Positions 99-3,205 of a stretch of 64,000 bases of DNA are shown here, in pieces. The position numbers were made by a program, and so were the translations under genes. This stretch comes from Erysipelotrichaceae bacterium 7770_A6 (GTDB taxonomy: Bacteria > Bacillota_I > Bacilli_A > Erysipelotrichales > Erysipelotrichaceae), in contig QQXM01000003.1 in assembly GCA_014610835.1 (NCBI GenBank), positions 1-64,000 of the forward strand, given 5' to 3'. Within the stretch, counting starts at the first letter, position 1, and each line of letters starts with the position of its first letter. The notes below the pieces were generated by a model that saw nothing but the letters and a program-made list of their open reading frames with translations, searched no databases and was not told the origin of the DNA.

Positions 99-566
99 TC
101 AACTAGCAGCTTTTGAAACAGCTAAATTCTTTAAATCTTTCTTTAGCACTAAGATAACACTATAAATTGGATTTAAGATTACAATAGCTAAACTTGCAAA
201 GATAATAAATACTGGATTCTTTAACATAAACCCTGCTAGTATTGCGACTAATACAACCACATAACAACACCAAGATTCTTTCTCTAGTTCTAATAGTTGG
301 TAGTAAATCAAACTATGATTCTGTTTACATTTGTCAACAAATTTCTTGAACATGTAGATACATATTAGTGTAGTTAATAAACCAAATGTCAAATCATAAA
401 TGATACCAAACTTCACAAACTCAATAACAATAAATGATAAGCTAAAGTTAACTCTTGCACCAATCATGCTATAAATATATTCCGATACATATGTCATAAC
501 AACAAAAGTAATAATCAATACACCAATAAAAATACCAGTATATTTAAACACATTTACTTTCTTCAT
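99..566 (-). CDS. four-helix membrane protein, last gene of the Cys-rich peptide operon
   Basis: The product is 155 aa with four hydrophobic segments at about residues 10-28, 55-76, 98-117 and 119-142, and a lysine-rich tail, so it should be an integral membrane protein. I recognise no family. Its ATG overlaps the stop of the upstream Cys-rich exported protein by 4 bases (ATGA), which points to translational coupling, and it has no Shine-Dalgarno sequence of its own. In peptide-export or bacteriocin-like operons, a small multi-helix protein in this position is often an immunity or accessory protein. That role is only an inference from position. The short stretch from here to the window start shows no gene. 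Confidence 0.75.
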   Translation of the reverse strand: MKKVNVFKYTGIFIGVLIITFVVMTYVSEYIYSMIGARVNFSLSFIVIEFVKFGIIYDLTFGLLTTLICIYMFKKFVDKCKQNHSLIYYQLLELEKESWCCYVVVLVAILAGFMLKNPVFIIFASLAIVILNPIYSVILVLKKDLKNLAVSKAAS

Positions 567-1174
567 AAATCACACACATCAAACGTTTCATAATAACCAG
601 TACAAACTTTATCAACACTAAAATGACACGCTGCCCAAACTCCTGATTTACATATAGCAGCAACAATCTTTTTTTTCATCAAACTAAAAATCTCACAAGG
701 CTTCCCTACAATAGCAGTGCAACCAGGACTAGATTGATACGACACATCATATGACCATGATTTGCATGTATACTTAATACATTGGTAGACGCGCCCTATT
801 GTTTCTATATAAATATTAGTCTTATGTTGCTTAATCAAATCATTAACCGATAACAAATCATCTTTGCCAATTGTTAGTAGAACTTCGAGGAATTCACCAT
901 TTTCATCTCCAATAAAAACCAAGTTTCGTACATATTCATCTTCTTCAGTTTTGAGATTATACTCAATGGTAAATCTTGTACCTTCATCTGTCTCAACTTT
1001 ACGTAAAACATCATATTGAATAACTTCATCTGCATAATCTTTATAGTATTTAGATTTTTCAACAATTTCTTTAAATTCATTTTCAGAAGAAATAGAAGTT
1101 TTAGCGCTAATCGGGATCAAAGAAGTGAACGAAAGGGTAATAATTAATATTACAGAAAATATTCTCTTTATCAT
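563..1174 (-). CDS. exported protein with eight-cysteine C-terminal domain (bacteriocin-like precursor?)
   Basis: The product is 203 aa. It has a signal peptide (residues 1 to about 24, ending ISA) and a charged middle region (about 25-128) without cysteine. The C-terminal part of about 75 residues holds all eight cysteines (132, 137, 152, 160, 175, 183, 191, 201). That layout, a pro-region followed by a compact disulfide-rich domain, recalls halocin C8-like and other Cys-rich antimicrobial precursors, but I see no diagnostic match. The upstream gene encodes a thioredoxin-like lipoprotein, which could oxidise or isomerise these cysteines outside the membrane. The downstream gene (4-base overlap) is a membrane protein. 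A structural surface protein is an alternative. Confidence 0.75.
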   Translation of the reverse strand: MIKRIFSVILIITLSFTSLIPISAKTSISSENEFKEIVEKSKYYKDYADEVIQYDVLRKVETDEGTRFTIEYNLKTEEDEYVRNLVFIGDENGEFLEVLLTIGKDDLLSVNDLIKQHKTNIYIETIGRVYQCIKYTCKSWSYDVSYQSSPGCTAIVGKPCEIFSLMKKKIVAAICKSGVWAACHFSVDKVCTGYYETFDVCDL

Positions 1175-1188
1175 AAATTTTCCTCAAA

Positions 1189-1630
1189 TTATTTTAGAAT
1201 ACTTGATAGCTGTTCCTTCGAAGAAATTCCCACTTCTAATGAAATGAAATTACCACTTTCAAACACCATAATTGAAGGAACAGAAGTTACTGAATACACA
1301 GTGAATAATGTTTCTTTTTCCTCATCAGTTAATATTGTAGTATCAAGCACGTAAATATCTGAATTTATTTTATTTGAAGATGAATATTCATTAAACTCTG
1401 TAACAAAAGTTTGACACCCTTTACAATCTGGTCTCAACAGTAATACATAACCATTAAGACCTTTAGAATCTGAGCTATTCGTCAACTGATCTATAGTGAT
1501 TGCATATAAATGAACTGATGTTTCATCCAAATTTAGTTTGTCAATAGTACTTTGATCCAAAGGTATTTTCGTGTTTTTACTACATGACGATAGAAGAATG
1601 TTAATAATAGAATACTATTTTTTTCAACAT
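1189..1630 (-). pseudogene. thioredoxin-like lipoprotein with frameshifted signal sequence
   Basis: The readable body (1189 to about 1600) is a thioredoxin-fold domain with a CxxC site (Cys-Lys-Gly-Cys, after LLRPD) and a typical VPSIMVF cis-proline segment. It has no good start of its own; the nearest is a TTG at 1560. Upstream, an AGGAG site (1636-1640) sits 5 bases before an ATG at 1628-1630 that opens MLKKIVFYY and then stops at TAA. In the +1 frame the sequence continues IINILLSSCSKNTK, which ends in a lipobox (LSSC) and runs straight into the thioredoxin domain. One base lost or two gained between about 1601 and 1617 therefore splits a lipoprotein gene. It could be a true mutation, phase variation or a sequencing error. 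The intact product would be an anchored extracellular thiol-disulfide protein serving the Cys-rich neighbour. Confidence 0.7.
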
Positions 1631-1662
1631 AAAATCTCCTTCAAAATATTATTGATGGAAGA

Positions 1663-1707
1663 CTAAATGTCACCGTTCTTATACCTTGCATTATTTTGAT
1701 AATTCAT
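1663..1707 (-). CDS. 14-codon open frame with strong ribosome site
   Basis: An ATG at 1705-1707 is preceded by GAGGAG at a 5-base spacing, a strong ribosome site. The frame reads MNYQNNARYKNGDI and stops at TAG. It lies first in the operon, 32 bases before the start of the thioredoxin-like lipoprotein gene. It may be a leader peptide, the decayed start of a lost gene, or a very small real peptide; the sequence does not decide. Confidence 0.35.
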   Translation of the reverse strand: MNYQNNARYKNGDI

Positions 1708-1720
1708 ATTTGCTCCTCAC

Positions 1721-1769
1721 AAACATATATGTTTACAACCGCAGCTTAGCATAAAACATGACAATGTCA
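1721..1769 (-). promoter_or_regulatory. two palindromes upstream of the Cys-rich peptide operon
   Basis: AAACATATATGTTT (1721-1734) is a perfect 14-base palindrome directly upstream of the first ribosome site. TGACAATGTCA (1759-1769) is an 11-base inverted repeat whose minus-strand reading contains a TTGACA -35-like hexamer. They look like operators or a 5'-leader hairpin. The rest of 1770-2058 is AT-rich with no gene I can support. Confidence 0.45.
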
Positions 1770-2058
1770 ATATCTTTACATATCATTTATTGTACATAGT
1801 ATTTGCCAATTATTAGCTTTTAGTAAGAGTATATTCCTGAGATATTCTAATCATTATACATGATATTTATTTTCATTATAAGTCTAGAATTTTTATAAAT
1901 ACTACCTATACTGGAGAGCTGAACTGAAAAGTTAAATTCCACTTTCGTATACGCAGAATAGAATTTACTATTTCATCAATTTCCAGTTGATTTTACTCTT
2001 TCAGAATGTTTTATTTTTCTTATCTGGATGTGTTGCCTCACGGAAAGGAGATCATACC

Positions 2059-2685
2059 ATGGCAACATCAAACAAGAATTTGCATTTAACTGATGACGAA
2101 CGTAAAATCATTCAACGCGGTATTGAAAATAATTCTTCTAAAAGTCCATCGCTGATACGCTTGGCAAAGACAAATCTACAATTGGCAAGGAAATCAAGAA
2201 TCATCGCACTCTCTCTTACAAATCCAAGTATCCTGTCGAGTGCGTTGATACCGGAAAATGTCCTAACAAGTATTCGCACCACTGTTCTATGGACTGTCCT
2301 GCGTTCAAGCCTTTTATCTGTAAAAGACGTGACCGCTCTCCTGGCGCATGCAACGGCTGCGAAAGATACAAGCGCTGCCGTTTTGACAAGTACATGTATG
2401 ATGCGTCTGCTGCACAGAAAGAATATGCTGAACTGCTCTGTGATGCACGTGCAGGCGTCAACGCTACAGTCAATGAAATCAGAGATCTCGGACTTCTTAT
2501 CAAGCCTCTTCTGGAACAGGGACAGTCTCTCTACGTCATCTGTCAGAACCATCCAGAGATCAAAGTATCTGACAGGACACTGTATACGTATATCGAAGAC
2601 GGTGTATTTCAGGATGCCGGCGTTTCTATCACCAATCTTGACCTGAAAAGAAAAGTACGCCGCAAGATTCCGAAAAATAAAAGAA
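2059..2685 (+). pseudogene. IS30-family transposase, frameshifted and truncated
   Basis: AAAGGAG precedes the ATG at 2059, and the reading MATSNKNLHLTDDERK opens a typical IS30 transposase with an N-terminal helix-turn-helix. After codon SSKS the frame breaks near 2145; restoring one T (AGT-TCC) gives the IADTLGKDKSTIGKEI motif. The next frame continues through the Cys-rich segment (CPNKYSHHC, then ACNGC) to RKIPK. It ends at about 2680, where the sequence switches to the reverse-oriented PTS gene, so the whole DDE catalytic half is missing. Base composition is visibly richer in G+C than the surroundings. The left terminal repeat was not resolved. Confidence 0.85.
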
Positions 2686-3205
2686 TACCCATCAAGAATG
2701 GCTGTAATTCTGTAGCCCACATAATTAAATTACCAACAGAACTTGCAGCTGCACCAATCGCAGGTGCACATAATACACTTAATCCAACACCAACAAGTAT
2801 TGTTGCTGCAGGTGTGACTAGAATATCTACTTTTGTTTCTTTTGAAACAAGCTTTCCAACTTCACTTGCAACGATAGCAATCAAGTAAACAGCCAATGGT
2901 CCACCTGCGCCACCTAATTCATTCGCAGAAGCACCCACTGCAATCAATGAAAATAATACAAGCTGTGGTGCATGCAATGCATATCCAATAGAAGCTGCCA
3001 TTGTAGGTCCAGCAACACTGCTTGCATATGTACCTGCATTTACCAAGAAATCAATGCCTGTCTGCTGCCCTAATGTCTTAATGATTGTTCCAATCAATAA
3101 GCTTGCAAATAAACCTTGTGCCATTGCACTCATCGCATCAATACCATAACGATGTGCTGAGATAATGACATCTTTCTTTTCAAAAAAAGATTTAATCTTA
3201 TCCAT
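2681..3205 (-). pseudogene. PTS sugar transporter IIC fragment, 3' end replaced by IS30 sequence
   Basis: An AGAGG site precedes the ATG at 3205. The 175 or so residues that follow (MDKIKSFFEKKDVIISAHRY, later GPTMAASIGYALHAP and ANELGGAGGPLA) are the N-terminal half of a hydrophobic PTS IIC permease of the PTS_EIIC_2 type, normally about 350 aa. After QPFLMGIL the reading enters antisense IS30 sequence and ends at 2609 with a meaningless tail. The transporter should be non-functional. It is the only PTS gene in the window, although two phospho-beta-glucosidase genes are present. Confidence 0.8.

Follow-up and report, generated by a model that had tools for sequence, protein, structure and literature searches.

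What does a small exported protein with eight cysteines do when its gene lies between those of a thioredoxin-like protein and a small membrane protein? The question is raised by positions 99-1769 of the window, the 64,000-nucleotide stretch of an Erysipelotrichaceae contig (QQXM01000003.1) analysed here. An initial annotation had proposed an uncharacterised antimicrobial or signalling peptide system, with the C-terminal 75 residues as its active part. We consider this interpretation of the three-gene system plausible and partly supported. On balance we lean towards the cassette encoding a Sec-exported, pro-peptide-type disulfide-rich bacteriocin, here called Cys8, together with a folding factor and an immunity protein.

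Layout of the locus and the Cys8 precursor

The minus strand of this stretch carries three open reading frames, which would be transcribed in the order thioredoxin-like protein, Cys8 precursor and membrane protein (Table 1). The Cys8 and membrane protein genes overlap by 4 bases (ATGA), while a 14-base gap separates the thioredoxin-like and Cys8 genes; the tight overlaps described in the initial annotation thus hold for the former junction and not for the latter. Ribosome sites lie ahead of the thioredoxin-like and Cys8 start codons, that of the Cys8 gene being of the GAGGA type and preceding an ATG. As the contig starts at window base 1, the downstream end of the operon is missing from the window. 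A promoter and terminator scan was uninformative, with 16 promoter-like sites against 13.9 expected and no terminator. The upstream side of the cassette consists of transposase debris. At 2040-3205, a truncated and frame-broken transposase-like gene (IS30-like by eye; the tested frame had no Pfam match) continues into a PTS EIIC gene read in antisense, which has itself lost its end (PF13303 positions 2-167 of 327 matched, 1.4e-33).

Table 1. Positions of the Cys8 locus features in the window.
Feature	Position	Strand	Description	Basis
Cys8 precursor, 203 aa	563..1174	(-)	signal peptide ~1-24, pro-domain ~26-127, eight-cysteine domain ~128-203	ORF, family alignment, pro-domain model
Predicted mature domain, 75-76 aa, ~8.4 kDa	566..793	(-)	Cys gaps 4-14-7-14-7-7-9	
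Thioredoxin-like ORF	1189..1560	(-)	CxxC + Val-Pro motif; readable part of damaged gene	
Thioredoxin gene 5' part	1561..1640	(-)	ribosome site, ATG 1630-1628, signal sequence split over three frames, lipobox SSC	
Small membrane protein, 155 aa	99..566	(-)	four hydrophobic segments; candidate immunity protein	

The precursor has the parts originally assigned to it: a signal peptide (Sec-type by eye), a pro-like region and an eight-cysteine C-terminal domain. At least eight cysteines in the last 76 residues has a binomial probability of ~1e-5 against the cysteine content of the window reading frames of at least 250 residues (208 Cys in 15285 residues; this set was compiled mechanically and includes non-genes). 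The densest other 76-residue stretch among those 33 frames holds 6 cysteines. No family in Pfam or NCBIfam matched the Cys8 domain, the pro-domain or the membrane protein sequences, and a PDB sequence search with the precursor gave no match of weight (best E 0.08). An AlphaFold model based on a two-row alignment predicts helices and a four-stranded sheet for the pro-domain (pLDDT about 60-90). The full-length model was usable for the pro-domain only, and a model of the Cys8 domain alone was unusable (pLDDT 34); Foldseek returned no solved structural relative of the full-length model in the PDB (best E 0.18).

One known toxin family was considered and rejected. Residues 3-86 of the window precursor weakly matched the SAR2788 family putative toxin model (NF038340; E 0.0015; score 18.3 bits, cut-off 50). 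This match disappeared once the signal peptide was removed and did not reflect any relation of the Cys domain, and the SAR2788 kinship was therefore dropped. A search for this family in 149 class genomes was uninformative, as the controls were as silent as the genomes.

Relatives of the precursor and their gene neighbourhoods

A protein search with the precursor of 272 Erysipelotrichaceae genomes found eight with E ≤ 0.01. Near-full-length relatives were confined to the window genome, G193 (49% identity), and G006 and G141 (~30%), and a fifth genome (G081) carries a remnant of the gene; matches in G184, G165 and G078 were dismissed as due to the signal peptide or to chance. Extending the search with a profile to 315 genomes of the order gave 35 at E ≤ 0.01, comprising 4 strong matches, a second remnant (G140) and 30 others that were weak or mostly located at the signal-peptide end; these 30 were set aside without individual inspection of each. 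In total, four intact genes and two remnants were found, and hence two of the six Cys8 genes are decayed. A search for the pro-domain on its own in other proteins gave a similar picture, with 11 of 266 genomes at E ≤ 0.05, the four intact members scoring strongly (E ≤ 2.2e-31) and the next best at 0.0018.

A profile of the domain alone produced six clear matches (E ≤ 2e-18) in the 272 family genomes, which are the same rows that built the profile; the next match was at 0.0022, and 66 genomes had matches at E ≤ 1. In these 272 genomes the domain was never found inside a larger protein, surface proteins included, all matches beyond the six clear ones having E ≥ 0.0022; this result favours the system as first proposed. 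A sample of 395 genomes of the class contained one clear Cys8 domain, that of the window itself. A scan of 84,980 species genomes yielded a single relative, the G193 contig (Erysipelotrichaceae bacterium SUG362), and no relative was found on the plasmids, phages or viral contigs searched; the species-genome and viral-contig scans depend on short peptide patterns matched exactly and may overlook distant relatives. Literature searches on halocin C8, SAR2788, thioredoxin-linked and Erysipelotrichaceae bacteriocins yielded no description of such a family. Judged by these sequence searches, the Cys8 precursor defines an undescribed family, here confined to Erysipelotrichaceae. None of the libraries searched contained this family before; the kind of system is already known.

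All four intact copies keep the eight cysteines, and in each the chain ends two residues past the last of these. Outside the cysteines the domain drifts, with 24-30% identity in the two distant members. It opens with Arg-Val followed by a cysteine within two residues in three of the four copies, and with R-G-P-V in G193. The cleavage point probably lies near this conserved R-V-x-C start. A fixed cysteine frame in an otherwise drifting sequence, together with the constant chain end and the R-V opening, fits an oxidised 8-kDa peptide that would be cut extracellularly from a pro-protein.

The order thioredoxin, Cys8, membrane protein on one strand recurs in three of the four intact loci (window, G193 and G141). 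In G193 the trio is preceded by a regulator-like gene and followed by a second membrane gene. The fourth intact locus, in G006, has Cys8 followed by a 257-residue lipoprotein and a 183-residue protein with a hydrophobic C-terminus, with no adjoining thioredoxin. Among the remnants, G081 retains a truncated thioredoxin-like lipoprotein gene, with CxxS instead of CxxC, whose initial portion runs into the Cys8 remnant, and a 143-residue membrane protein comes next; in G140 the remnant is followed by a 77-residue membrane protein, and the genome has no thioredoxin-type match at 1e-3. Of the intact loci, 3/4 thus have a thioredoxin immediately before Cys8 and 3/4 a small membrane protein immediately after it; for the remnants the figures are 1/2 and 2/2, respectively. 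With only two thioredoxin-type matches (E ≤ 1e-3) in the whole 2.3 Mb window genome, the genes are unlikely to have become neighbours by chance; the co-occurrence survey suggested at the outset therefore came out as non-random.

The window thioredoxin-like frame contains the motif CKGC and a Val-Pro (SVP), and matches the NCBIfam thioredoxin model at 1e-7, under the cut-off of that model. Its upstream part is disrupted (gene at 1189-1630): the AGGAG-preceded ATG at 1630 opens a frame that ends after nine codons, while the hydrophobic core and the lipobox LLSSC each occupy a further, different frame. The window gene is therefore either decayed or mis-assembled. The export signal is intact in the other two copies, the G193 protein being an intact lipoprotein (IIGC) and that of G141 having a signal sequence without a lipobox (both by eye). 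All three copies retain the CxxC and Val-Pro. HMM matches to the thioredoxin fold were under cut-off, with the exceptions of PF00085 (G141) and TraF PF13728 (G193). The CxxC thioredoxin lipoprotein of the initial annotation is thus present as a CxxC thioredoxin-like frame with a lipoprotein relative in G193, but the window copy is frame-broken.

The window membrane protein shows the four hydrophobic segments originally noted. Membrane partners are scarcely alike between loci: that of the window shares 20% identity over 128 residues with the first membrane protein of G193 (Mem1; E 0.003 without composition correction), and by eye the partners have no common CxxC or conserved core. Their common role is consequently inferred from position. 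Little mutual similarity is usual for matched immunity proteins.

Insertion contexts differ between genomes, being the ftsA/ftsZ side in G193, the position after tmRNA in G006 and transposase remnants in the window. The G193 five-gene cassette (L009 6103-11646) sits within a housekeeping cluster, between an ftsA-like gene, which adjoins an ftsZ-like gene, and a thiamine pyrophosphokinase-like gene (names by eye). In G006 the Cys8 gene immediately follows tmRNA (L011 7279-8942), a common island insertion site. Past the G141 cassette (L010 3812-7562), a transposase-like gene separates a subtilase fragment from a truncated MFS transporter; a role for the subtilase fragment as the processing protease is conceivable, though the link is weak. 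Near the G141 locus (L010 11675-13240), as well as in G140 (L052 3144-6719), regulators with HTH and TPR regions are divergent from a gene for a small exported peptide with two cysteines (CEEHHKSDYCW and CPEHHKVDDCW), of which G140 has two copies. These are candidate peptide-sensing pairs. Also encoded in G140 (L052 4838-5750) is a 110-residue protein whose hydrophobic stretch is rich in glycine; an 85-residue membrane protein comes after it. Neither had significant family matches; they are possibly a second peptide-immunity pair.

Possible functions of the cassette

The sequences show three genes in a conserved order, a conserved cysteine frame, a domain that is absent from other protein contexts and a patchy, decaying distribution. 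In the bacteriocin reading, the Cys8 protein would be exported by Sec, with the pro-domain keeping it inactive or aiding its folding. Outside the membrane, the thioredoxin-like protein would make or reshuffle four disulfide bonds in the manner of PedC or BdbA, and a protease would then release the compact 75-residue peptide, against which the adjoining membrane protein would protect the producer. We infer disulfide pairing, cleavage, killing and immunity from the genes and their arrangement. By analogy with known systems, the CxxC protein beside Cys8 fits an oxidative folding factor. A membrane protein that is small, divergent and encoded downstream would suit an immunity role. The rarity of the cassette, its differing insertion sites and its frequent decay are in keeping with a bacteriocin locus that is repeatedly gained and lost. 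Counting against the bacteriocin are the intact G006 gene without an adjoining thioredoxin, the lack of any Pfam or NCBIfam match for the Cys8, pro-domain and membrane protein sequences, the lack of a recognisable dedicated ABC exporter, and a trio order that is intact at three loci only, with the thioredoxin gene broken at one of these.

Precedent for the folding step comes from PedC/BrcD and from BdbA of sublancin, where, as predicted for the Cys8 loci that have a thioredoxin-like gene, an extracytoplasmic thioredoxin-like CxxC protein is encoded beside a disulfide-containing peptide. In the case of pediocin, co-expression of PedC cut the MIC threefold, from 1.2 to 0.4 uM, and BdbA and BlpGst are reported to do similar work (PMC4919988). 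Among NCBIfam models, the G141 thioredoxin matched the PedC/BrcD maturation model TIGR01295 best (6.6e-7), at 29.3 bits against a cut-off of 120; the G193 thioredoxin scored 14.2 bits against the same cut-off and the window copy had no match at E ≤ 1. Unlike these systems, the Cys8 peptide is part of a large pro-protein rather than following a short leader peptide, and no ABC transporter was seen.

The conserved gene order would also be expected of an exported disulfide protein of any other kind that has a dedicated folding factor. Cys8 could be a protease inhibitor, an adhesin, or a metal-binding or redox protein, with the membrane protein as anchor or disulfide-regenerating partner. A folding factor encoded beside a Cys-rich exported protein is a sign of disulfides rather than of killing. 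The membrane protein could stand in for a DsbB/CcdA-like partner, since none was recognised separately. The membrane partners, however, lack the common CxxC or conserved core that was looked for by eye, and rarity, decay and sequence drift would be unusual for a housekeeping exoprotein. We regard such a role as unlikely.

Cys8 might instead be a secreted disulfide-rich signal to sister cells, controlled by a peptide-sensing regulator that adjoins the cassette. The 420-residue regulator-like gene directly upstream in G193, with weak TPR matches, points in this direction, as do the HTH and TPR regulators near the G141 and G140 loci. RRNPP-type regulators provide a precedent for a small peptide as signal, but the natural signal for regulators of this kind would be the small peptide encoded divergently from them and not a 75-residue Cys8 domain. 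Furthermore, the regulator in G141 is separated from the cassette by an IS-like transposase, no such regulator was recognised by eye in the ORF list of the G006 locus, and only transposase debris is found upstream in the window. We consider a signalling role improbable.

Comparison with halocin C8

A bacteriocin made as a pro-protein has a counterpart in halocin C8, described in a review as an exported pro-protein with a 76-residue Cys-rich end, the remaining, N-terminal part being the immunity peptide HalI (PMC11509114). Both precursors comprise an export signal, a pro-domain (roughly 100-200 residues) and a C-terminal Cys-rich domain of ~76 residues. The last six cysteines of Cys8 follow the halocin spacing C-x7-C-x12-16-C-x7-C-x7-9-C-x8-9-C, a pattern present in 4/4 intact Cys8 members and the 3/3 haloarchaeal proteins fetched. 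Random placement gave it in 2-7 of 400000 trials per sequence, a figure that overstates the case because the pattern was written after both families had been seen.

Nevertheless, the comparison with the halocin C8-like family proposed in the initial annotation gave no sign of homology. The TIGR04449 model (cut-off 24 bits) did not match the window protein or its own genome (E ≤ 1) or the four Cys8 domains alone (E ≤ 5). None of the 245 genomes of a phylum sample (0/245) was matched at E ≤ 1e-3, and the Haloferax volcanii control was. Residue similarity beyond the cysteines was not significant: profile comparison by hhalign gave a probability of ~1% for the domain and 1% for the full-length protein, and shuffles with the cysteines fixed scored as well against the halocin profile in 35-139 of 1000 cases (244-823 of 1000 in the reverse direction). 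Since the model, the profile comparison and the shuffles all fail to show homology, and the cysteine spacing alone agrees, membership was rejected and Cys8 is not filed as a halocin. Further differences are the number of cysteines (8 in all four Cys8 members, 10 in the three haloarchaeal domains), the Sec-type rather than Tat-type signal (by eye), and the thioredoxin partner at Cys8 loci, for which the annotated genes around the three fetched halocin loci offer no equivalent. A strict halocin C8-like bacteriocin, with the pro-domain as immunity protein and the C-terminal domain as a distant halocin C8 homologue, shares architecture and cysteine core with Cys8 but is very improbable in the face of these tests.

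The Cys8 system may still work like halocin C8. We put forward as an unlikely, more specific proposal that Erysipelotrichaceae possess a new class of large, Sec-exported, four-disulfide bacteriocins, produced as pro-proteins and with their own oxidative folding factor, in which the six-cysteine disulfide frame would equal that of halocin C8, by convergence or by very old cross-domain kinship. Whether the shared cysteine spacing reflects a shared disulfide frame is a concrete question that a single structure could settle. If the bacteriocin reading is true, the cassette would add an undescribed disulfide-rich antibacterial peptide family from a gut-associated bacterial family, and would offer a compact system in which to test how the disulfides of a secreted peptide are set by its dedicated thioredoxin partner.
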